64,000 bases of DNA from Polytrichum commune (taxonomy: Eukaryota; Streptophyta; Polytrichopsida; Polytrichales; Polytrichaceae), in assembly GCA_950295325.1 (NCBI GenBank), contig OX485806.1:39804001-39868000 (forward strand), read 5' to 3'. The position numbers were made by a program, and so were the translations under genes. The notes beneath the pieces are model-generated. The model saw nothing but the letters and a program-made list of their open reading frames with translations, searched no databases and was not told the origin of the DNA. Within the stretch, counting starts at the first letter, position 1. Each line of letters opens with the position of its first letter. This document shows, piece by piece, positions 1 to 63,100 of this stretch.

Positions 1-2692
1 TTCTTGAATACATATCCCCATCTCGTCCTCATTACAAAGCATGACACTATTTATGTACTTACCTCAATAGTTAAAGGCACTTTGCTTTCTATTCATGCCG
101 TATCAACTTTCTCACATGTTCCAATCAACCATTGCATGACATGTGGTAACCTCATAATAATGTTGTGTCGTAATTGATAAGATATTGCAACATATTCAAT
201 CACCATGTCGTATGGAACACTTGATGCTACATGACAAGTTAATTTAAGACTATAATTATTGATGTAGCACATAATTTTGATGCCATGCTAAACCAAACAA
301 ATAGTGTATCTTTTGTTTCAGGGGTCCAGACGCCCACCGGTCATCAAAGGCTTAGACAACATAACGAGTATTCTTAAATAAGTCACATTCACTTTCCAAT
401 TGTGAACAGAGGGGATGTTCTCTTCATACCTCATACGAACTACCGTGAGTGTAAAAGGGATACCATAGTAGCAAGGTTAGTTTGTCACTAACTACTCTCA
501 AAAATGTGTGTGTGTGTGTGTGAAAGCATGTTTAATTTTGGAGCCATGACAATGTAGATTTGAGTAACTAACCCTTTAACCTGGAATCAACAAATCAACT
601 ACAATATCATGCTATCTCCATCATTTTTACATGATACTCCATGTTTCAAATTTTATTATGAATTGATCATGGAATTTTGTAGATGTTCAAATAAGCCTAA
701 TGAATTTTGACCAACCAAGTTAATAAATATTTTGTCATTTTAGTGATGAACTAGCCTCGCTCTATGGAGATTTCCATAGCAATAATGTCCATGAAATGGT
801 AGGGTGGAATATGTTTGTAAGACATAAATTTTATATTTCATTTAGATCTACATTAGGCTCCATTATGCATCCACGAGTAGTTTATATAACATCAAGTACT
901 ATGAATTGTGCTAATTTGCTTCTATTTTTTTGGTATAATCTCCTAACAAAAATTGGAGTGATTTACTATTATGTAGGATGTATACATTTAGAGGGTGAGT
1001 TTAGGTATCATATTCAAATTAAATAAATAAAGTCTCAATCCCTGTGGATGAATTTTCAGTCATTGTAGATGAAACAAGAAAACACGAGTTTTTTTGTTAG
1101 GGTTAGAAGCACGTGGAGCTAGTTTTCCCTTTCCATTGTCATTTTGCACAACTTCTTTAGCTACACATCACGCCATCTTCACAGTGCTCAAACGTTATGT
1201 CATTTTACCATGTTTCCTTACATGACAAATATCAACATACAAGGAACTCCACTCCAATACCACAAAGGGAAAAAATGAATCCTTGTTTTTTATAGATAAA
1301 ACAAGGTGCAATTTATTTCCAATTATGGATTTTATAATTACGTCTAGGGTGGAGGACATGGAAATAAGTAGGATTCTCAATAATTATATGGTCCCAAAAA
1401 TATTGAAGACTAATTCAAAGAAGAAGAATTAAGTGTTAGTTAATGTTTAATTGTGGAATTTATAGTGTAACACAAATTTCAAGACATAAATATGAACAAT
1501 ACAAGGTGGCGAACAAGAAAAAAACAAATCAAATAAACATGCGTAATTTATGAGAGTCATGGCGAGTGAGTGTTGATACACCTATCAAGGGGGAGGGAAA
1601 AAGTGAATATATTGATTATTATTGTAGAACTTAGGCATTTCTAATTTTATCTAGTTCAATCCCCTAAACAAAGGCTAGAGGTCCCAAATTAGACTAATGA
1701 GCTTAAATTAATATGAATTGACAATCAACATGGGTACAAGGACATGTTTACTATTATCCCCTTGGCAGGGGTTATGAAACCTAACCCTATCGATGTGGTT
1801 GTAATTCTAGTTATGCTTGACATGAGGAGTCAAGGCTAAGTTGGGGTTTTGACATGCGTAAATCCTTGTACATGATTGGTCTCATTCAGTAAATCAAACC
1901 CAAGGCCTTAACATGATGTAGTGAAGGCCATCCCGTAAAATTCATATCTTAATGAGGTGAAATCAGAGTTTTATGCACTAAATGCATAATATGATACGGC
2001 CTAAGGGAAGAGATTTGAGCTGGACCAAAATGGAAACATGATTGGCTTCCTTTGGGTTGTGTTAGAGCTTCCTCCCTTGTTGGCTTGAATCAACATTTCA
2101 TATGAATTGGTTTCAAATTTTGAAGGTCTTGACCCCTAATGTAAAGCGAACCTTACTTCCATTGCTAATGGAAACCAAAGTTCATAACATTATACACCCT
2201 TCAAAGCACGGTCTTTTCCAAGCCAAGTTGGTCCCATGATTCAAGCATGTAGATTTTATGACATATTGGTTGTGACCCATACATGGGTAGCAAGCCAGCT
2301 AGGCAAGCGACAAGTTAATCTATTTTTAAATTGATAGAAAAGAAAGACGATTCCGATGATATTGCCACTGGCGTGAATTACGGTGTTGCTTCATTTTCGA
2401 GTTGGTTTAGGTGTATATGTAATCTTGAAACGCGCATTACGAGAATTAGAGGCCCCCCGACGACTTTTGAAGGTGAACACCTTCAAGAGACACATACTAG
2501 CTGGATGTTACCTATGTCCCCCAAAGGGCAAGCTCCTAGGTTCTTACGCAATTGGTTGAAAAGAAATCTAGTTCACCAAGACACCTCCACTATGATTGGG
2601 TGGATCACAGGTGGAAGGGTGTATCGGAAATCAAGTGCTAGGAAGGACACTCATCCGAGTAATATTCCAACCTTAGGCAACTTAATCTAGGA
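1..2692. other. AT-rich intergenic DNA without a supported gene
   Basis: Open frames here are short, lack recognisable motifs and several have no ATG. One longer frame at 2331-2690 opens only with TTG and resembles nothing I know. A (TG)n microsatellite lies near 505-522. I see no RNA gene, and no repeat that recurs elsewhere in the window. Confidence 0.6.
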
Positions 2693-2839
2693 CAAAACAT
2701 TATTCAAATCCATAATAGTGTTCCGTGGGACTAACATTGTTCCATGGAATAATTTCATATATCACTCTAAGCGTGGAGAATATTTTGTAGAATATTGTCA
2801 ATTCCATAAAACATTGTTGTGGATCTGAATAATGTTATG
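2693..2839. repeat. Palindromic fold-back element, family G copy 1
   Basis: About 147 bp whose two halves are inverted copies. The left end contains ACATTATTCAAATCCATAA and the right end reads as the complement of ACATTATTCAGATCC. Related to the cleaner copy at 13109-13256, with the same order of blocks (a GTTC-TGGGA block, then an AATATT block). Probably a non-coding fold-back MITE. No clear target duplication is visible, so the superfamily is not assigned. Confidence 0.6.
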
Positions 2840-3070
2840 GAGTTCCGATGGGATTTTAGGTTGGTATATTACATTCAAGTCGCGACTAGGGTTTTGATAC
2901 ATATCCTCATCACTTCAATGTTTTTTTTATTAATGGCCAAGTACCATTAATTAGTAATATGCAATTGCTAATTCTCATGTTGAGTATACTTGAAATGTTG
3001 GGAAAACTCATAATAAAAAGGGCATAATGCCAAGGGGATTCCCGGCCCACGGAACATCGATACACATTGA

Positions 3071-3559
3071 GGGCCACTTCACACACGAGACTGAGAGCCC
3101 ATGACCGGTACACTTCAAGCACTCTCATTGGTGGAAAAGGCGGAGCTGGTCCAAGTTCACTTCACACTACGCTTGAGGGACCAACATTGTATTTGGATGT
3201 AAAGTTTGCTTGGATTCCTACGCGGCATCGAATGGACCATGGTTCATGGTCACTTGGGTTGTTTTCAAAAACCATCTCATGGATGTAAGCCTAACACAAA
3301 ACCGGGAGACCATGGCACTCCGGACGCTCACAACCGTTGGTTTATTCTACTTTATCATGTGCGAGGACCCGCATGAATAGACATTCATTGAAATAACATT
3401 TGGTTGAGGGCCCAGTCACACATGACTTCACACTACACTCGAGGGTCCGTGACCACACTACATGATATTGAAGGTGTGTTGGGACGGCCTTTGGACACTT
3501 TTCTTTTGGGCTCTCACAACATCATGGTCACGGCTCTTGGCTCGTGTGTGAAGTGGCCC
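3071..3559 (+). mobile_element. Harbinger/Tourist-like MITE, family A copy 1
   Basis: A 489-bp non-coding element starting GGGCCACTTCACACACGAG and ending with its exact complement, CTCGTGTGTGAAGTGGCCC. The inverted similarity continues imperfectly for about 35 bp. Three further copies (4752, 41633, 44406) share termini and interior. Those copies are flanked by TAA or TTA duplications, the mark of PIF/Harbinger elements. This copy lacks a clean TWA duplication, probably because its right half was drawn into the tandem array that follows. Confidence 0.8.
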
Positions 3560-4363
3560 CGAGCAATGTGGTCGTGGTGCTAAAGTCAAAGAATGAACAC
3601 AAAAACAAGAACAAAAATCAAACATGGGGAAGATTCAACACGGCCCACGCTCATCTTCGGTCCCATATAAGTGTGACCGTTGGTTTATTCTATTTTATCA
3701 TGTGCAAGGACCTGCATGAATAGACATTCATTGAAATAACATTTGGTTGAGGGCGTGGTCACACATGACTTCACACTACACTTGAGGGTCCGTGACCACA
3801 CTACATGACATTGAAGGTGTGTTGAGACGGCCTTTGGACACTTTTCTTTTGGGCTCTCACAATTTCATGGTCACGGCTCTTGGCTCGTGTGTGAAGTGGC
3901 CCCGAGTAATGTAGTCGTGGTGCTAAAGTCAAAGAATGAACCCAAGAACAAGAACAAAAATCAAACATGGGGAAGATTCAACACGGCCCATGCTCATCTT
4001 CAGTCCCATATAAGTGTGACCGTTGGTTTATTCTATTTTATCATGTGCGAGGACCTGCATGAATAGAGATTCATTGAAATAACATTTGGTCGAGGGCCCA
4101 GTCACACATGACTTCACACTACACTCGAGGGTCCGTGACCACACCACATGATATTGGAGGTGTGTTGGGACGGCCTTTGGACACTTTTCTTTAGGGCTCT
4201 CACAACATCATGGTCACGGCTCTTGGCTCGTATGTGAAGTGGCCCCGAGTAATGTGATCGTGGTGCTAAAAGTCAAAGAATGAACACAAAAACAAGAACA
4301 AAAATCAAACATGGGGACGATTCAACACGGCCCATGCTCGTCTTGGGTCCCATATAAGTGTGA
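3334..4363 (+). repeat. Tandem array, 3 x ~343 bp, built from the right half of the family A MITE
   Basis: Units start at 3334, 3677 and 4020 with CCGTTGGTTTATTCTA and keep a constant 343-bp period. Each unit holds the right ~226 bp of the MITE, including its terminus, plus ~117 bp of unrelated flank ending GTCCCATATAAGTGTGA. The array ends in a G-tract (about 4367-4379). Units differ by only a few substitutions, so the amplification is fairly recent. It probably arose by unequal exchange or replication slippage. Confidence 0.85.
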
Positions 4364-18689: not shown

Positions 18690-20381
18690 CAATTAGATGG
18701 TTAGTGACTTAGTAGTGGTGGGCAATGAATGCCGGGGTAATGGGGGGGTCAGGAAAGGGGCAGGCCCCCTCCACTCTGCCGCCTCCACCAAACTACCTTC
18801 ATTGCACCTCCTCCCTCGCCTCGCCTCGCCTCGCCTCGCTCATCGCCTCTCGCTTGCACCGCTCGAGCTCAACATCATAATCCCTCGCTCCACTTCCCAA
18901 GCCTCCATCGCCATCGCCACTGTCGTCCACGCAGTGCAGCCCAGCCTGCCCTGCCTCTGCACCATCGCCTTCTTGCTGCACCGCTCCCAAAATTTCAAGC
19001 CCCGTAACCTCAGATCGGGTCAGATCAGGCTGGGCGGCGGAGCTGCTGCTCTAGCTTAGTTCGCTCGTTCTCCGCTTCAGATCAAGCGCTAGAGCTCTAG
19101 TAGTCGCCGGGTCCGGAGTCTACGAGGTGTGCGCCAGCTGCATTGCCCTGCTCTGGTTTGAGAGTACTGCTGAGCTTCACGGGTTCAAGGGTGAAGGTCG
19201 CTGGCGACCTGCATTGCCGTCTAGCATGATAGATTAGTCGACCCATTGTGTGTATATACAGGGTGTTGTGTGTTTTCTTGTGTATAGGTTGGAGCTGATT
19301 CAATGGGGCTGCTGCTGCTGCTGCAGCGTTGGCATTGAGGTTTTTGGGGGCTGCAGCTAGCCTGGCTAAGTTGAAGAAGCTATCATGTATTGTGTGTCGT
19401 CGTTGCTGCAGTTGATCATCTTCTTCCTGGCCGTGTTGTTGGTGGAGCTTCTTGCGCCAGTTTCTTCCTGGCCCTGCAGCAGGCTGGCGACCTTTCTCAT
19501 CCGGCGATGCTAGCTCCGGCAGTTGAGGTTAGGTGGTAGTAGTTCAGCGTCGGTGAACTGGTGCGTGCAGGCAGTGACGACGGTTTCTGCATTCGAGCTG
19601 GTCTTTGAGCTCAAGAATGCACTCCTGTTATATATCATGATAGTGGACCGACTCACTGCAGAAGCAGGGGCGGAGGGTTAGGCTAGCTGGCACCCACATC
19701 AACAACAGACTCCTCGACATCATCAGGATAATATTTACAATGACATTATGCATGGAGCTACTTTGACGAGCTGGCTGCAGGTAAATGGAGACGTCGGTGG
19801 CCGCGTCGATGGGTGAGGACTGCAGTAGTACTAGCGACGTCGCATGGAGGTCTTTCTTATCTGGAGAAGTGGATCAGGCGAAGCTACAACATCATCACCA
19901 GTAGGAACTATGTATGTAACAGTCGCCGCAACATCGGCCGCCAACACCGTTTTCTAGGCACTGGAGGGAATGTTGATGTTCAGGTTGAACTGGAAGTTGG
20001 TATACTACTTCGAGTTGGTCTGCATGTAGTTACAGATCATTAACACATTGAAGCAGCATTTCCGGCCTGGTGGACCCAAAGGAAGCTGGGAGCAGCTTGT
20101 CGACAACATCGGGAGGCGCAATATCCATGAAACAGTCGCAACATCCATCTCAGATTACATCGACGTCAGGAGCAGGGGATGAATATTGTTGAGGTTTGAG
20201 GCTATAATATTACGTCAATGAGTGTTGATGCAGACTAGTTGATCAGAGATAGTCGCATAGTTAGTCAATATTGCGTTGCATTGCATTGCACACCTACCCA
20301 AAGGGCGGTGGAGTGTTGTGTTGTGTTAGGGTTTTTTGGTGTGGGGGTAGAGTTGGTTCAGAGAGCTTGGTGTGGTTGACA
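18690..20381 (+). promoter_or_regulatory. GC-richer putative promoter and 5' leader of the ABCG gene
   Basis: Base composition changes sharply from AT-rich intergenic DNA to a GC-richer stretch with a CT-rich block (CCTCGCCTCGCCTCGCCTCG at 18817-18836). CTG-rich runs follow (19306-19330), then the ABCG start codon. A TATATA at 19253-19258 is a possible core promoter. Many upstream ATGs lie between 18697 and 20381, so an unspliced leader over the whole stretch would translate poorly. A start site close to the gene, or 5'-UTR introns, is more likely. A 120-codon frame at 18697-19059 is low-complexity (Ser/Leu/Arg/Ala) and is treated as leader sequence. Confidence 0.45.
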
Positions 20382-22478
20382 ATGGATTTCGAGAGGCGGC
20401 GGGAGGGGCCCCGCAACAACCAGGTGGTGTGTTGCTGCACAGGGGTGTGCACAGGGATAAAGAGTAACCGGCACGGTCATGTGAAAGCATCCCAGGTGGG
20501 GAACTACATGCCAGCAGCCTCATCGCCATCGCCTTCACCCTCCCGCTCGAAATCCTATCTGCTTGAGCTTCGTGACCTGAGCTACAAGATTGTGAACAAA
20601 AAGATGGACAAGGGACAGGCACCAAGAGGTGCATTGGGGCTTTTGAAAGGCGACTCGGCTGCACTGAGCCCCTTCAATGCCAAACCTTCGCAGTACATTC
20701 TGAAGCACATCAGCTGCGAGGCTAGGCCAGGTGAGCTTCTGGCAGTGGCCGGGCCAAGCGGCGCGGGGAAGTCGACATTGCTTGAAGTTCTCGCAGGGAG
20801 GATTAGGCCAAGCTCACCTTCAAGTAGCATTCTGGTAAACGGACAACCGATGGACAGACAACATTTTCGCAGGATCAGTGGCTATGTGATGCAAGATGAC
20901 GCACTCTTTCCCATGCTCACTGTGCGGGAGACTTTGTTGTATTCCGCAAGGCTGAGGTTACCTGCCGCAGTGCCAATGACGGAAAAAATCTCTCGAGTGG
21001 AGGCTTTGATGGCGGAGCTTGGGTTAAGCCATGTCGCAGGGACGAGGATTGGAAACGAAAGTATCCGAGGTGTGTCTGGAGGTGAGAGACGAAGAGTTTC
21101 CATTGGTGTGGATGTGATACATGACCCTGCGGTTTTGATTCTCGATGAGCCAACTTCAGGGTTAGACTCCGCAGCAGCGTTGCATGTGTGCAGCATGTTA
21201 CGAGGGATGGCAGTCTCACATAAGCGCACCATCATCTTGAGCATTCATCAGCCAGGGTACCGAATTTTGCAGCTCTTCCATGCAGTGTTGCTCCTTGCAC
21301 AAGGAGCAGTGGTGCATCATGGCAGCTTGGAGCTTTTGTCGCAGCGGTTGGCCGCTTCAGGACACCATATCCCGCCGCAGGTTAATGTGTTGGAGTATGC
21401 CATCGATTCAATCGACTCACTCGACACTGACCGGAGCTCCATCTTCTCTGTCAGAGGGAAAACCGATTTGCCAGTGCTCACGTTGCAGGAGCTTTTCGAG
21501 CTTGATCCTACAAGAGCTCATGGCCATGTCGATATTGGCGATGGAGGGTCATCACAAGACCTCGAAAGCGCAGGGCAAACTTCACCTTCCCGCAGCAATT
21601 TGGATGACACGGAGAATGATAAGGTGCATTTTGCCAATAGCGGAGGGCAGGAGATTATGATTCTCGGGCATCGGTTCATTAAGAATATCATCCGAACAAG
21701 GCAACTCCTGTTAGCGAGGACGATCCAAGCGGTTGGTGCAGGGTTCGGACTCGGTACCATCTACTTGCACATGGGATATGGAACTCCAGGCATGCAGAAA
21801 CGAGTTGGCTTCCTTGCTTTTACCTTAACCTTCCTCCTCACATCCAGCATTGAAGTCCTCCCAATCTTTCTAGAAGAGCGTAACATCCTTGCTCGCGAAA
21901 CGTCACGAGGAGCCTACAGGGTTTCATCATACGTTCTTTCAAGCACTTTGGTTTTTCTACCCTTCCTCTTCCTGATTGCGGTCATGTACGCAGTACCCGT
22001 ATACTACTTGGTAGGTTTAGCACCGCAAAGCTCAGCCTTTCTTTTCTTCTTGCTCATCATCTGGCTTATCCTCGTCACAGCGAACTCCTTCGTCTCTTTC
22101 TTCTCTGCACTGGTTTCCAACTTCATCATGGGGAACACCATTGTCACAGGGGTCATGGGAGCATTCTTCCTATTCTCGGGCTACTTCATTGCGAAGGATT
22201 ATATGCCGAAGTACTGGCTGTTTTTGCATTACTTGTCATTGTTCAAATATCCGTTGGACTCGTTGCTGATCAATGAGTATTCTTATGTTGCGGATAAGTG
22301 TTTCGGGCCGGACTATGGTGGCCACTGCTTCATCACGGGGCAGAATGTGCTGGAGAGCATGTTTCTGGACAAGGAGAACAAGTGGGTGAACGTGGGGATC
22401 ATGGCAGGGTTTGCCGTTGCCTACCGAATTTTCTGTTTCATTGCGTTGCATTACAAGCTCGTGAAGAGGCGACGGTGA
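20382..22478 (+). CDS. ABCG-family (WBC) half-size ABC transporter, ABCG5-like
   Basis: A 698-residue half-transporter with one nucleotide-binding domain followed by one membrane domain, the ABCG order. It would act as a dimer at the plasma membrane, exporting lipids, cuticle precursors or hormones. Visible motifs: Walker A GPSGAGKS (124-131), Q-loop at Gln171, signature VSGGE (231-235), Walker B VLILDEP with Glu256 (251-257), and the H-loop His289. A Ser/Asp-rich linker (about 345-420) precedes roughly six membrane segments (about 443-463, 475-495, 520-545, 553-575, 583-605, 672-692). All catalytic residues are present. The start is the ATG in GACAATGG, a strong plant context; the frame is open further upstream but has no earlier ATG. 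The gene has no intron, as I recall for Arabidopsis ABCG5, which it resembles most (for example FLFSGYF and VSSYVL). The N-terminus is Cys-rich and variable. The ABCG family is certain; the subgroup is an inference and the substrate is unknown. Confidence 0.95.
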   Translation: MDFERRREGPRNNQVVCCCTGVCTGIKSNRHGHVKASQVGNYMPAASSPSPSPSRSKSYLLELRDLSYKIVNKKMDKGQAPRGALGLLKGDSAALSPFNAKPSQYILKHISCEARPGELLAVAGPSGAGKSTLLEVLAGRIRPSSPSSSILVNGQPMDRQHFRRISGYVMQDDALFPMLTVRETLLYSARLRLPAAVPMTEKISRVEALMAELGLSHVAGTRIGNESIRGVSGGERRRVSIGVDVIHDPAVLILDEPTSGLDSAAALHVCSMLRGMAVSHKRTIILSIHQPGYRILQLFHAVLLLAQGAVVHHGSLELLSQRLAASGHHIPPQVNVLEYAIDSIDSLDTDRSSIFSVRGKTDLPVLTLQELFELDPTRAHGHVDIGDGGSSQDLESAGQTSPSRSNLDDTENDKVHFANSGGQEIMILGHRFIKNIIRTRQLLLARTIQAVGAGFGLGTIYLHMGYGTPGMQKRVGFLAFTLTFLLTSSIEVLPIFLEERNILARETSRGAYRVSSYVLSSTLVFLPFLFLIAVMYAVPVYYLVGLAPQSSAFLFFLLIIWLILVTANSFVSFFSALVSNFIMGNTIVTGVMGAFFLFSGYFIAKDYMPKYWLFLHYLSLFKYPLDSLLINEYSYVADKCFGPDYGGHCFITGQNVLESMFLDKENKWVNVGIMAGFAVAYRIFCFIALHYKLVKRRR

Positions 22479-44100: not shown

Positions 44101-44405
44101 TAGCTAGCTAGCTCACGTCACCGTGACCTTGGTCCAACAAGTACTTTGGGAATCGGAACCGCAACAAATGCTTGGATCGGGTCGTTGTTGGTTAAGTGTA
44201 AACTTGTTCTTAAGTTATTGGCGTGGGTGAAGAGTCCATATCTGCATGGGCATGTGTTTAAGTTACTTGAACCCAAAGGACACACCTAACATTTGCGGGT
44301 GCTCGAGTCGAGGTGGATTTGGGAAGGTGGGGTTTGGTGGAGATTGGGTCGATGACTAACTTTTATCATAGGGCTCCTTTAATTACACCAACAAAACGTT
44401 ACTAA

Positions 44406-44907
44406 GGGCCACTTCACACACGAGCCAAGAGCCGTGACCATGAAATTGTGAGAGCCCAAAAGAAAGTGTCCAAAGGCCGTCCCAACACACCTCCCAAATC
44501 ATGTAGTGTGGTCACGGATCCTCAAGTGTAGTGTGAAGTCATATGTGACCGGGTCCTCAACCAAATGTTATTTCAATGAATTTTTATTCATGGGGGGGTC
44601 CTCATACATGATAAAATAGAATAAACTAATGGTTGTGAGTGTTCAGAGTGCCACGGTCTCCCGGTTTTTCTGTTAGGCCTACCTCCAAGAGATGGTTTTT
44701 GAACATAGTCCAAGTGACCATGAAACATGATCCATTCGATGCCATGTAGGAATGCGTGTAGACTTTACATCCATCTTGCATTCACATACTCCGTTGGTCT
44801 CTCAAGCGTAGTGTGAAGCGAACTTGGACCGGCTCTGCCTTTTCCACCAACGAGAGTGCTTGAAGTGTAATGGTCACGGGCTCTCAGTCTCGTGTGTGAA
44901 GTGGCCC
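44406..44907 (-). mobile_element. Harbinger/Tourist-like MITE, family A copy 4
   Basis: A 502-bp copy from GGGCCACTTCACACACGAG to its complement, flanked by TAA (44403-44405 and 44908-44910). The paralogous site in the second copy of the duplication reads CGTTACTAAGCAGGTACATG with no insertion and a single TAA. That directly confirms the target duplication. Confidence 0.9.
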
Positions 44908-45103
44908 TAAGCGAGTACATGATGCTCTTTTTCAAAAGAAAGAGGTTGTGATTAGACAACTTTGATAATTTACAATTGTTTGTCAAACAATTCACAATAC
45001 ACAACCTAAGTGTTCTCCATAAACAGTTGCCCTAACAATTGCGGTGCTCGAGTTGAGGTGGATTTGGGAAGGTGGGGTTCGGTGGACATCGGGTCGATAA
45101 CTA

Positions 45104-46299
45104 CAGTCTAACCTTGATAATGTCACCCTTGTTAATGGGACACCTTGATACTGTCACCTAAAAGTTTGAAACCGATTTTCTTAGTGTAAAACTCCCTCGT
45201 TATTATCCCTATCACCCTTGTTAATGTCACTATTTTTTTCCAAAATCCGTAGTGTAAATGTGATAATATCAAATATGGATGGATTGTATGTGATGGTTGG
45301 ATGGACATATTGTAGTAGCCAAAAGGGTCATGAGCCACCCCTGTGATAAATGCAATGTTATTCAAAGGGTCATGAGCCGCCTCTGTGCACCAACCCTGAA
45401 CGGTGCTGTCTATACACGGCACTCAAAGGTGTTGTCTTTGACGGCGCTGCCAAGACTTCTTGGCCTCTATGCACCCCACCTTCCGTCACATGTGTTCACC
45501 TATGTGTCTTTGAGGGTTTCAGCTTGTGTGAAGTAATTTAGGATGTTAAGTTCTACGGTTTAGCTGAGCTGGTACAGAGTAGTGTCGACTTAAGCTAAAT
45601 TAGTTCAATTGGTTTGCAATGTAGAAATCTCAAGATATGTGGCACGGTCTTCACTGTTTCTATAGTCAATAGTCGCATAGGAGAATCTAGTAAGATCATA
45701 AGTGTTAGCCGCTCATCCTAAGTGGGCATTCAATTAGGAACAATCTTCTAGACTAGTTAGTCAAGCTCACAAGTAGAAACAATCTTCTAGGTAGGTTAGT
45801 CAAGCTCATAAGTAGAAACAGTCTTCTAGGTAGGTTAGTCAAGCTCATAAGTAGAAACAGTCTCCTAGGTAGGTTAGTCAAGCTCATGGTCGAGCTCACT
45901 TGTATATAATGAACCATTGTTCATTTGGAATTTAAATGCACACTTTCTATCATAGGCTTGTGTTTCTTCATGCAGTGCAGGTGTTCTTCGTTGTGTTGTT
46001 GTTGCTACATTGGAAGCTAGTGATTGGCTGATCTCAATGACACATTGTGATGTGCTCATGTTGTTATTCACAATTTTGAATTATATTTTACATTCAAAAA
46101 CATTGAAGTCTTGTGTTTGTTTTTTTTTTTGTTTTTTTTTTTTTACATTGTAATTTCATTTTGATTTTCTACCTTTTTTTTTTGATAATATCACATTATG
46201 CACAAATCTTCAAAATGTGACATTATCAAATATGTCACACCTTGTTTATATCACACTTTATGGTGAAACGGATGGTGTGATATTATCAAGGTTAGACTG
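45104..46299. mobile_element. TA-flanked Tc1/mariner-pogo-like element, 1.2 kb
   Basis: A 1196-bp element starting CAGTCTAACCTTGATAATGT and ending in the complement of CAGTCTAACCTTGATAATAT, flanked by TA (45102-45103 and 46300-46301). Further GTGACATTATCAA-type subrepeats lie inside both ends. The paralogous copy reads CGATGACTAACTTTTATCAT, an empty site with one TA. It contains no recognisable transposase; the frames at 45132-45541 lack DDE/DDD motifs. A 39-bp tandem array lies inside. Confidence 0.85.
45738..45890 (+). repeat. 39-bp tandem repeat, ~4 units
   Basis: Units read GTAGAAACA(A/G)TCTTCTAGG followed by TAGGTTAGTCAAGCTCATAA. Three units are nearly identical and the first is diverged. 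Located inside the 1.2-kb TA-flanked element. Confidence 0.85.
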
Positions 46300-46470
46300 T
46301 AACGTCTAGATCTTAGAGCCCCGTTACACCAACAAAACGTTACTAAGCAGGTACATGATGTTCTCTTTCAAAAGAAAGAGTTCTCTTGCGATTAAAACAC
46401 TTTGATAATTTACAGTTACTAGTCGAACAATTCACAACAGTCTACATCCTAAGTGTTCCCCATAAACAAG

Positions 46471-47744
46471 ACATCCCTGAATTATGTGATGATTATGCTC
46501 ATGTGATACTTGGTCCCACGAAACACAACCTAGAAAGTGTGTAATGTTATGAACGAACGAGGAGATTTTTGTAGAATAAGTCTCTGAGTGTTGTCATGTA
46601 GGCATCCATGTATAGTTAGGACTTAAGACTTGGGATGCCGTGTGAAGTGGTAAGTCCCAACTTTTATTGCTTTCAATGGCTCAAATTGCACGGATCAACC
46701 TCAAGCAAACTAGGACTTGAGACTTGGGACCCCGTGTGAACTAGCCCTTAGAATCTCTTACTTTATCCCACTCAAATTTTTCCTTGTAGTCAGTCGGTTG
46801 GAACCCATGTTGGTCTAGTAGTACCTCTTTTACGATACCATTTAGGTATCTATAATAAAGGTTTCAAAAAATTTGATATCAGTAGAGTATGAATATTTGA
46901 CATTGTATTTTTTTTCTCGATGTCATTCAGGTCCATTTATCATGCACGAATCTTCACACCTAGGCTAATGTGTTGGGATGAGTGATGGTTGTTGTGTTGG
47001 GCAAAGAGTGGGTAACAATTGACATTGAAAAAACTCAAGCACCTCAAAGAGCATCCTAAATCACGGGGAGGTCACTTCATTGTCAAGTTGACACCACGTG
47101 CGGACAAAGTTTGCTACCCCTATATTACATGCCATACATAATTTTAAAATTTATGATATTTTTTCTACATATACATAACCATTGATAGTATCTTTTTTAT
47201 ATATTTTTGAAAATTTTAGTCATCTTTATTTTTTTAGTAATTGTTTTAGTCCAATTTTGTGTCATTCTAGTTAGAAACGGTATGTTTTATGAAAAAAACA
47301 AATCATCAAATTTAGTTACCACTTTTAACTATGTCATAGGTACTGTGTATATCTACTCATGAAAAAAATTTAATAAAATTTTGACTCATTTTGGTGGTGC
47401 AACTTACCAAAAGAAGATTGTTTTTGGTCGCACGTGGTGTTCAACTTGATAATGGAGTGATCTACCCGTGTCCTAAATAAGCCAACCATCATGCATCGAC
47501 GCCTTAAAACCCCCTCTAAGTCATCCATACAAGTCCTTAAAGCACTTAGAAACAAATTGCACTATAAAACGCAATTGCCAATCAATCAACCCTAAAACCA
47601 CCTCAAAAAATGAAGTAATAGTGTGAAGGGCATAGTCCCAAGTGCACCTCCCACATCTTATACATTTTGCAAGTTCACAAGTCTTACCTTGGTTCTTGTC
47701 CACATAACCACTTAGATTTTTATGAATTGCTCTTTCTGAGCTTC
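46471..47744. other. Gene-free interval
   Basis: No supported gene. Around 46600-46750 two GACTTAAGACTTGGGATGCC-like pieces, one followed by CGTGTGAACTAGCCCTTA, may be ends of a decayed Harbinger-like element related to family A. Confidence 0.45.
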
Positions 47745-60178: not shown

Positions 60179-63100
60179 CTACAAATCAGCCTCCTCTGCT
60201 TCCTCTGCAGCCTCGGCTACAGTAACTAGTTTGAATGTGGCTACAGCATCTTGCCACGAGATGGTGCCATTTGCAAGCTCTTGGACAACTCCAACAAGAT
60301 ACTTGTGTGCAACCCTAATCTGCTGCTTCGAGTCCCTATCTCTCACAGTGACACCATCCTCATTGTAGTCAACAGTGATGGCAAACGGTATCCCAACCTC
60401 ATCGGTTCTCGCATACCTCTTCCCAATTGAGCGGCCTGTGAGATCAATCTTGTTGGAGACACCTGCGCGAGTGAGAGCAGTGGAGATTTTCTTCGCCGAT
60501 GCATTGAGAACCTCACGTTGGAGGAGAGGGAACACAGTGCACTTGATTGGGGCAATGACAGGTGGGAATCGGAAGACGCTCGAAACAGCTTCACCAGGAA
60601 CAATCGGCCGTGTGTAGAAACAGTGTTCGTAGAGGCAATACATAATTCGGCCAATACCAAAAGATGGCTCAATGACAGAGGGAGTGAAGCTCCGGCCACT
60701 TATTTTGACCAGTTCTTTTGAAATAGATACCATATCCTTGGTGAGGTTGTACTCTTGACCTGTCGTGCAAATTTTGTAGGTGGCTTTCCCCTTCGTGTCT
60801 AGTTCTGCTTGCAAGTCCATTGCCTCATTTTCAGTCATTGCCTGGAGAAAGAACTGTATTGTCAGTACCCAAAGAACCTGTCTTACTTGATTCATAGACC
60901 TCTGGAAACATGTACCTACATGATTTACAATCACATTTACATAAAATGAAAAAAACACTTGGACCATCCTGCCATATCTTATTGAGTTTGTAGACAGCTT
61001 CTAAGAGAAAAGTACTGAGGAATCTAAATCTTACCTCAAGAGATTCTGATAAGATCTTGGCTTCTTTCCGGAAGTGTTTACCCAATACAGCCTTGTTTGG
61101 TACAATTGTTAATTTCTGCACACAAATGAAAACAAACCAACCGATGGGCATCAAATGCCAATGTCAATATATCAATATATCCATTGCAACGTGCTGGAGA
61201 GACAATTCTGTAGGGCCACATAAAAATAGGACAATACAGGTTACAATTGATTATAGTCATTACGAAGTAGAAGAGATAATTGACATCAATGATTATAAAA
61301 AAATAAAAAATAAAATAAAAAAGCCTTTGCATGTCATCCAAGGATCATGTGCTTTGACAAGATCAATGTGGTACTTGATGGAATGCTTAATAAGAGATTG
61401 CAAGTTGCTGTGCTCTAGAAAACGTTGTATAAGAAATTCACCTCCACGTCCTTTGGTTTATCGTACTTCTCGTAAGCCACAAGATCGGTACCACTCTTGA
61501 CCTGAATAGACATAGATTGCCAGAGTAAACACAATTGAACTTGGAAAACACATCATAAATCAAAAGTGCATGAGCCCTGATGTTAAAGTGAACCTTAAGC
61601 CATTGAACGACTTGTGCTGTGGATGAAATCTATGTGCAGTAGAAATCAATGTCTTGCAATCCTTGAACATGATTCCAAGTGTAAAAAGCATACCGAATGT
61701 GCCTTCAGGTCAAAAGCAGATCGATCTGCCAAGCCTACACACTCAAACCAGCCATAAGAGCATTCAATTTCCGCATCCCAGCAGTCCTGAGCATAATGAG
61801 CCATTTCATTCTGTAGATGCTGCCGAAATCTTAGGCGTTCCTTGTCTATACCAAGACTAGTGAGAAACAAGTACACCCTTGCGATAAAGTAACCTAGGGT
61901 TTCATTGTCTACAATGCCCTGTAAAACATACAAACAAGAATTGTCAGAACAAGGACAGTGAAACCAAAAGGAATCAATCATCTCAAGGACATCACACTTC
62001 AACAGACAATGTAGACAGAGAAGATAGATTCCACCAAAGTAGTTCAGAAACTCATGTCCAAACTTCATATTGACAACTACAACAAACCTGACATGCTTCA
62101 AGAAAATTTGAACACAAAAGCAAATGGCCACAGCAACTTGGAGAATGAACCAGATTTTTTTTTAAATCCCCCAAAAACCAAAATCCGGAAATCTAAAACA
62201 TGATAGGTTCAAGGCTAAATGCAATCTAAACAACAGTAATGACCATGCATAAGAGGAATCGTTAAAAATTAGAGAAGCAGAGAGGACGGAGGTTGACCTT
62301 GGAAACAGCATCACCAATCCTCATTTTTACATGATCTTGCAATGCAGACTGTTCTGCTCTTGGAAATAAATTAAACTCCAAGTCAGCTACATCCTTGAAC
62401 TTTGGGTGAGACTTGTCATCTGGATTGACAAAATGCTCAATCTCTGCTAGAGTGAACTCCCTTACCCTCATGGGACCTTGACGAGGTGCAATCTGTAGCA
62501 GTAATGCATCACCCAAGAAAAAAGCATAAGAAAACACACCTGATTCCACTCTAGCCGCAACGGAGTATCACCAAAAAGTGAATCACTTGCAAGGAAGTTC
62601 ACATCCAAATAAATTCACTTGTGGACAATGAGTGTGCTTTAAAAACAAAAGCCCAAAACCCTAGACAAATCCTTGTTCACAACAAACAAATATTTCCAGT
62701 GCTTGCAGAAGAGATGATTACAATTCAATTTAAGAATCTGAAAAGTGTCTGCCAGGCGACCTCAATCTGGAAAATGCACATAATCAACACGAAACGGGAG
62801 AGAGTGTTGCACACCTCATTGCGATATGCAGAACCAATCTGAGCAGCAGCAAAGGGCAACTTCTGACCATTCTCGTAGTAGAGGTCCTTAAAGTTGACAA
62901 AAATGCCTTGTGCTGTCTCTGGTCTCATGTAGCTGCAAAAAACTCAATTGCATAAACTTCTGTGAACTGCACTATTCAATCATGTAAATGCACACACCAA
63001 GCCTGCTTGACCATTTGCTCCTCAACACACATACCTAATTCCAGTATGCATAATGACTCTGGTTGAAGATATCCTTGCAAGTATCAAGGTTCCAAAAAAC

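Follow-up and report, generated by a model that had tools for sequence, protein, structure and literature searches.

A tandem duplication in the moss Polytrichum commune whose two copies show each other's transposon empty sites, and the pogo-like parent of one of the inserted elements

Emigrant and Lemi1 elements have a TA target, CAGT ends and short terminal repeats, and a pogo-like transposase spreads their internal-deletion derivatives; work by Negoua and colleagues in 2013 reportedly dealt with internal deletions of Lemi elements. The pogo superfamily, with Tigger, Fot and relatives of CENP-B, is given a length of 1.2–5.2 kb and a catalytic spacing of DD29–56D in the cited part of one survey, where Lemi, from 23 eudicot species, is the only pogo lineage of land plants and no significant amplification is reported among them (PMC7386202). 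The cited part of a second survey describes two plant transitions of pogo, involving Selaginella and dicots (PMC7325037). Among mosses, PpTc1 and PpTc2 are Tc1-like elements of Physcomitrella, for which related empty sites served as evidence in the cited part of their description (PMC4054914). A search of the open-licence literature found no title on moss pogo elements, which is not proof of their absence.

In this study, we analysed a stretch of 64,000 nucleotides of the Polytrichum commune genome (the window; assembly GCA_950295325.1, contig OX485806.1, positions 39,804,001 to 39,868,000), in which the two copies of a short tandem duplication are interrupted by different elements, A in copy 1 and B in copy 2. 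B shares with Emigrant/Lemi1 the TA target, CAGT ends, short terminal repeats and an origin by internal deletion of a pogo-like element, and differs in the terminal sequence that follows CAGT, as well as in its moss host and in the DD42D spacing of its parent. That parent agrees with the pogo superfamily in joining a CENP-B-like helix-turn-helix and a DDE_1 domain in one frame and in its TA duplication, and its length and spacing lie within the published ranges (PMC7386202); its host, however, sets it apart from the land-plant members named in the cited parts of the two surveys, which come only from eudicots (PMC7386202) or from Selaginella and dicots (PMC7325037). The moss host, CAGT...ACTG ends, recent copies and the empty-site logic are common to B and PpTc1/PpTc2, whereas the latter are DD34E Tc1-like elements in the cited part of their description (PMC4054914) and the parent of B is a DDD pogo-like element with a Tc5/CENP-B-type helix-turn-helix. 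With reciprocal empty sites in one locus, no second genome is needed to fix the exact ends and the target duplications of two elements, and at least B is shown to postdate the duplication. The locus itself illustrates known processes cleanly; of greater interest is the pogo complement behind B.

Reciprocal empty sites in a tandem duplication

The assembly searched comprises 408 Mb in 64 contigs, seven of them large (42–78 Mb). The window contains no N and lies inside a 59-Mb contig, and an Rfam scan of its 64 kb returned no match at the gathering score. The locus is composed as follows, in positions of the window.

44285–45025, + strand: copy 1 of the duplication, interrupted by A; from alignment with copy 2
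44392–45026, + strand: family C in copy 1, its right end truncated by the duplication breakpoint, with A directly after the 11-base left terminal repeat
44403–44405, + strand: TAA target duplication left of A; from the letters, with one TAA in copy 2
44406–44907, + strand: element A, non-autonomous and 502 bp long, whose terminal inverted repeat (about 38 bp, imperfect) starts GGGCCACTTCACACACGAG
44908–44910, + strand: TAA target duplication right of A; from the letters
45031–46468, + strand: copy 2 of the duplication, interrupted by B; from alignment with copy 1, the left half occurring at these two places only in the assembly
45102–45103, + strand: TA target duplication left of B; from the letters, with one TA in copy 1
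45104–46299, + strand: element B, a pogo internal-deletion derivative of 1196 bp, with the 23-bp terminal inverted repeat CAGTCTAACCTTGATAAT(G/A)TCAC
45735–45887, + strand: 39-bp tandem repeats in B, 3.9 units; self-matches are also seen in this region of the full-length element
46028–46030, + strand: internal deletion junction of B, where B 1–927 corresponds to 1–939 and B 925–1196 to 3545–3809 of the full-length element L082, with 3 bp common to both parts
46300–46301, + strand: TA target duplication right of B; from the letters
46333–46551, + strand: complete family C element (about 215 bp) on the right side of copy 2, extending past the duplicated unit, with ends CATAACATTAC...GTAATGTTATG

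Across A, copy 1 reads CGTTAC-TAA-GGGCCACTTCACAC...GTGTGAAGTGGCCC-TAA-GCGAG, and the corresponding site of copy 2 reads CGTTACTAAGCAGG, with no insert and a single TAA. Across B, copy 2 reads CGATAAC-TA-CAGTCTAACC...GGTTAGACTG-TA-ACGTC, and copy 1 reads CGATGACTAACTTTT, with no insert and a single TA. The inserted lengths are 502+3 bases for A and 1196+2 bases for B. After removal of A with one TAA and of B with one TA, the two copies align continuously, with no gap at either junction; A is present only in copy 1 and B only in copy 2. Three local alignments with differing penalties contain 231 ungapped columns with 29–30 substitutions and 14 gap columns in five or six runs (K2P 0.139–0.145), a divergence of about 6.3–6.5% changes per lineage. 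The gap closest to the B junction lies 6 bp right of its TA and the one closest to A about 21 bp left of its TAA, and the alignment shows no excision footprint at either empty site. The local score is 271, compared with a maximum of 29 among 300 shuffles of one copy.

Letters and alignments together bear out a sequence-only reading of the window, which had described a tandem duplication at 44286–46470 with each copy as the other's empty site, a family A MITE at CGTTAC-TAA in copy 1 facing a single TAA in copy 2, and a TA-flanked element of about 1.2 kb after CGATAAC-TA in copy 2 facing a single TA in copy 1. The alignment of about 245 bp that it placed at 44286–45030 and 45036–46470 is clean at the junctions as proposed, but the unit measures about 240 bp, at the positions listed above, and has small indels away from the junctions. 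Its further proposal that one locus fixes the ends of both elements and the TWA and TA target sizes extends to other copies: the ends of B, with TA on either side, recur in all 24 complete 1.2-kb copies examined, and a perfect matching TWA pair flanks 16 of 22 complete A copies, being absent in six (L060, L064, L068, L069, L076 and L079).

The left half of the unit appears to be otherwise unique DNA and the right half a dispersed repeat family, C. Only two places in the assembly, both at the locus, match a 113-base query taken from the left part of copy 1 (two of two candidates scored), and the two copies are read as a tandem duplication because this query matches nowhere else. With the joined copy 2 as query, 42 matches were obtained, 40 of the 134 candidates having been scored, and those outside the window fall in the right half of the unit. 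C, which the sequence-only reading had not reported, is a third, old inverted-repeat family with the make-up of a MITE, short (about 215 bp) and dispersed, with 11-base inverted terminal ends CATAACATTAC/GTAATGTTATG in a consensus of 20 rows. Twenty loci were fetched and 19 were aligned with copy 2, L001 being left out as 99% identical to L002. Most pairs are about 68–81% alike, and at this level of likeness no target duplication was seen by eye in the 20-row alignment. The site of A within C is uninterrupted in 18 of the 19 other aligned copies (L009 has one extra letter), and L004 is unrecognisable there. Copy 1 of C ends where copy 2 of the unit starts. By eye, the breakpoints of the duplication show no long homology, which argues weakly against unequal crossing-over between flanking repeats as its mechanism.

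Order and age of the events

The ages were compared on the assumption of similar neutral rates for the elements and the duplicated DNA. B differs from a consensus of itself and 24 sisters by 2 changes in 1188 sites (K2P 0.0017), far below the divergence of the duplication (Fisher 6e-10 to 1e-10), and it is well supported that B is far younger than the duplication. A differs by 20 changes in 499 sites (4.0%; K2P 0.041) from a consensus built from A and the 22 copies nearest to it, which is not that of the whole family. The difference between this value and the divergence of the duplication is not significant by the Fisher test (0.19–0.26), because the duplicated stretch is short, and reaches 0.013–0.021 in a Poisson test if the duplication rate is taken as exact. 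The simplest reading is that A inserted once the duplication had occurred, and divergence alone points the same way without settling the order; A is likely to be older than B. The proposal of the sequence-only reading that the segment was duplicated first and received two insertions later is therefore firm for B and, mainly by simplicity, likely for A.

The history that we favour, with a probability of roughly 0.88, is a duplication followed by A in copy 1 and later by B in copy 2, B being a pogo derivative moved in trans. An old inverted-repeat element C of about 215 bp would have stood beside otherwise unique DNA, and a segment of about 240 bp, made up of about 110 bp of the unique DNA and the first 130 bp or so of C, would have been duplicated in tandem, after which the copies would have diverged. 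A would then have entered copy 1 at a TAA adjoining the terminal repeat of C, with duplication of the TAA. Later, B would have entered copy 2 at a TA, with duplication of the TA, probably mobilised in trans by a transposase that its 3.8-kb pogo-like parent encodes.

Some PIF/Harbinger-type elements are known to excise precisely, and an empty site alone cannot separate a site that was never filled from one that was perfectly restored. A might accordingly predate the duplication and have been lost from copy 2, the more so as its 4.0% is not significantly under the 6.3–6.5% per lineage of the duplication; this course needs one extra event, however, and neither empty site carries a footprint, and we regard it as improbable. 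The same course for B, with loss from copy 1, is much less likely still: the age gap of B makes an old insertion followed by precise excision untenable and excludes it in practice.

That the right half of the unit belongs to a dispersed family (134 first-look candidates, 40 of them scored, and 20 loci examined) would also suit two separate insertions of one dispersed repeat. The left half, however, has no further match in the assembly beyond the two copies, and copy 1 of C stops at the start of copy 2 of the unit; two landings of one repeat are ruled out by the left-half query, with its two matches both at the locus, and we attach hardly any weight to this possibility. Scarcely credible, finally, is an assembly artefact in which two alleles or reads were joined in tandem. 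A and B are both high-copy repeats, able to mislead assemblers, with nothing specific beyond that, whereas 29–30 differing sites among 231, together with five or six gap runs, are much for two alleles, and the window is free of N and well embedded in its contig of 59 Mb.

Affiliation of element A

TWA followed by the first 19 bases of A, with at most one mismatch, matches the assembly at 4,228 sites on the forward strand and 4,223 on the reverse strand (8,451), and the reversed control pattern at none. A 3-bp TWA target duplication is a feature of PIF/Harbinger elements and is present in A, in the 16 copies with perfect pairs mentioned above and in the window copy with its empty site; both TAA and TTA are found in A's own orientation. 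By its target duplication, A is suggested to be a candidate member of PIF/Harbinger. It resembles the Tourist-like MITEs of that superfamily in the 3-bp TWA duplication, in its G-rich ends, in a length of about 500 bp and in its thousands of terminal matches, and differs from them in lacking the terminal motif G(N)5GTT, in place of which it reads GGGCCACTT.

A could instead be a member of a different TAA-targeting group, for example the Fot-like pogo elements. Most Fot elements use TAA in the cited part of the pogo survey (PMC7386202), and the motif that A lacks is the one used for PIF/Harbinger elements of Medicago in the cited part of that study (PMC2213677). Consistent with a different affiliation, none of the eight DDE_Tnp_4 matches in the first 15 Mb of contig C1 lies within 5 kb of an A end among the 100 of 8,451 ends listed, all of which fall in that stretch, the nearest match lying about 10 kb from one of these ends. 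Against it, the occurrence of both TAA and TTA in A's own orientation is the usual TWA picture of PIF/Harbinger, and DDE_Tnp_4 genes are abundant in the genome (990 candidates, 150 scored). We consider a non-PIF/Harbinger origin of A rather unlikely, with a minor but real share of the probability. The earlier statement that two superfamilies inserted at the locus is thus firm as regards B, which is pogo by the domains of its parent, and only likely as regards a separate superfamily for A, judged by its TWA target.

Two arrays involving A were also seen. At 3333–4363 of the window there are three 343-bp tandem units (94% matches), each with part of an A element, and a copy of A seems to have become part of a small tandem array. 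On contig C1 near 5.138 Mb, four left ends of A are spaced 222, 222 and 228 bp apart.

The pogo-like complement behind element B and other genes

With the whole interval of B as query, 59 matches in the assembly were obtained, 40 of the 5,850 candidates having been scored. The 25-base terminus of B, TA followed by CAGTCTAACCTTGATAATATCAC, matches the assembly 338 times in forward and 340 times in reverse orientation when one mismatch is allowed, and its control pattern has no match. At a distance of about 0.8 kb from ends of the B type there are several DDE_1 (PF03184) matches, and six full-length elements of 3.6–3.9 kb (L080–L085) were obtained, whose two ends are matched by the two parts of B. 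All six are bordered by TA at either end, although one of the two TAs belonged in each case to the selecting pattern; in pairwise comparison, their longest aligned pieces are 98.0–99.3% identical and their shorter pieces 95.5–99.4%. An open frame of 574 codons is present in four of the six (L080, L081, L083 and L084), L082 has 508 codons and the frame of L085 is broken.

The 571-residue transposase contains a CENP-B/Tc5-type helix-turn-helix (HTH_Tnp_Tc5, PF03221; E 2.1e-14, residues 83–144) and a DDE_1 domain (PF03184; E 2.1e-35, residues 209–391). A DDD triad of D183, D288 and D331 was assigned by eye, D183 preceding the Pfam match. Among solved structures it matches the DNA-binding domains of CENP-B (1hlv; E 4.9e-6) and Abp1 (1iuf; E 3e-4), and four other structure matches are weak (E 0.36 to 0.97) and concern unrelated proteins. 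The TA duplication and short terminal inverted repeats of pogo elements are found in 24 of 24 copies of 1.2 kb and in six of six full-length copies, with a repeat of 23 bp. B is an internal-deletion derivative of this 3.8-kb pogo-like transposon, a derivation that the sequence-only reading had not included; classification as Stowaway/mariner or as Tc1-like is ruled out by the DDE_1 and HTH_Tnp_Tc5 domains of the parent. About 2.6 kb of the parent is missing from B, and its transposase gene is gone except for the last few codons; B would have to be moved in trans.

Deletion classes were mapped on L082 among 39 fetched loci (L021–L059). Class 1, the class of B, accounts for 24 loci (L021–L044), class 2 (1–1039 joined to 3224–3809) for seven and class 3 (1–1019 joined to 2927–3809) for four, and four loci (L048, L049, L054 and L055) are parts of full-length elements. 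One fetched copy each represents class 4 (1–768 joined to 2489–3809; L034 with L086) and class 5 (1–594 joined to 2371–3809; L087, on contig C2 near 28.26 Mb). A frame of 363 codons, the length of class 4, is present in 10 of the 150 scored DDE_1 matches, and one of 397 codons, the length of class 5, in 23 of the 150, two of them with an internal stop; for both lengths the class itself is shown by the single fetched copy. The 397-codon frame spans the nuclease domain. It was considered as a trimmed working transposase and rejected: in L087 a stop immediately precedes the first triad region, and no Met stands between them.

Some insertions lie close together. L034 holds a class-1 and a class-4 member of this pogo family, about 130 bp apart. 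At L053, a class-2 element lies beside pieces of an older relative (85–89% identity), which suggests repeated use of one spot or a nested insertion. An A element lies 55–77 bp from a B-family element in three of the 39 loci (L026, L040 and L041, the last with a 47-bp match to the end of A only), against about 0.1 loci expected by an estimate from the density of A, most loci having been fetched with 100-bp flanks only; a clustering of A and B-family insertions is possible.

DDE_1 has 984 candidates in the assembly, of which 150 were scored, all above the curated cut-off. Twelve further DDE_1 loci were fetched (L102–L113). Six of them (L106–L110 and L112) show 89–92% protein identity to the parent of B over the matched part, L111 shows 51%, and L102, L103, L104, L105 and L113 show 26–34% in their main matches. 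In a scan restricted to TA-flanked ends, CAGT was found at both ends of L102, L104, L105 and L112, at one end of L107–L110, and at no end of L103, L106, L111 and L113. The ends of L104 and L105 read CAGT(C/T)CACCCTCTATAAGTGTTA, which resembles the ends of Emigrant/Lemi.

The 3.8-kb family with open frames, the five deletion classes (two from one copy each) and several further families may represent a diverse, recently and perhaps still active pogo system in this moss, a proposal for which we see the chances as evenly balanced. If true, it would bring bryophytes into the range of the pogo superfamily and conflict with the little amplification published for land plants. A pogo family in a moss is relevant to the history of pogo among plants, and the parent of B is a candidate active transposon for bryophyte work.

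Other genes were noted in the window and in the genome. Two open frames of the window were recognised by eye only, a 735-residue frame resembling ABCG transporters at 20271–22478 (+ strand) and a 262-residue frame resembling glycyl-tRNA synthetase at 60179–60967 (− strand). A light-harvesting complex (LHC) frame (L096) best matches chain 9 of 8htu (396 bits) and of 7xqp (383 bits), which we take to be Lhcb9 of Physcomitrium patens, and then multi-domain chains of 9vfj, presumably Euglena (up to 374 bits, in several stretches), and LHCII from what we take to be green algae (241) and flowering plants (226). An Lhca3 frame (L097) best matches 8htu, 7xqp, 7ksq, 6l35 and 9lut (441 to 433 bits; next chain 398); 8htu, 7xqp and 6l35 are presumably P. 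patens structures. In the cited part of one paper, LHCB9 is called unique to P. patens, moss Lhcb9 structures are cited and 7KSQ is a P. patens structure (PMC11629750). The best matches of a third frame (L100) are CP24 chains, a sign of a land plant but of no narrower group. A chlorophyll a/b-binding gene has fourteen matches of identical score within about 95 kb at 1.75–1.85 Mb of contig C5 (L088–L095 and six more), which form a tandem gene cluster.
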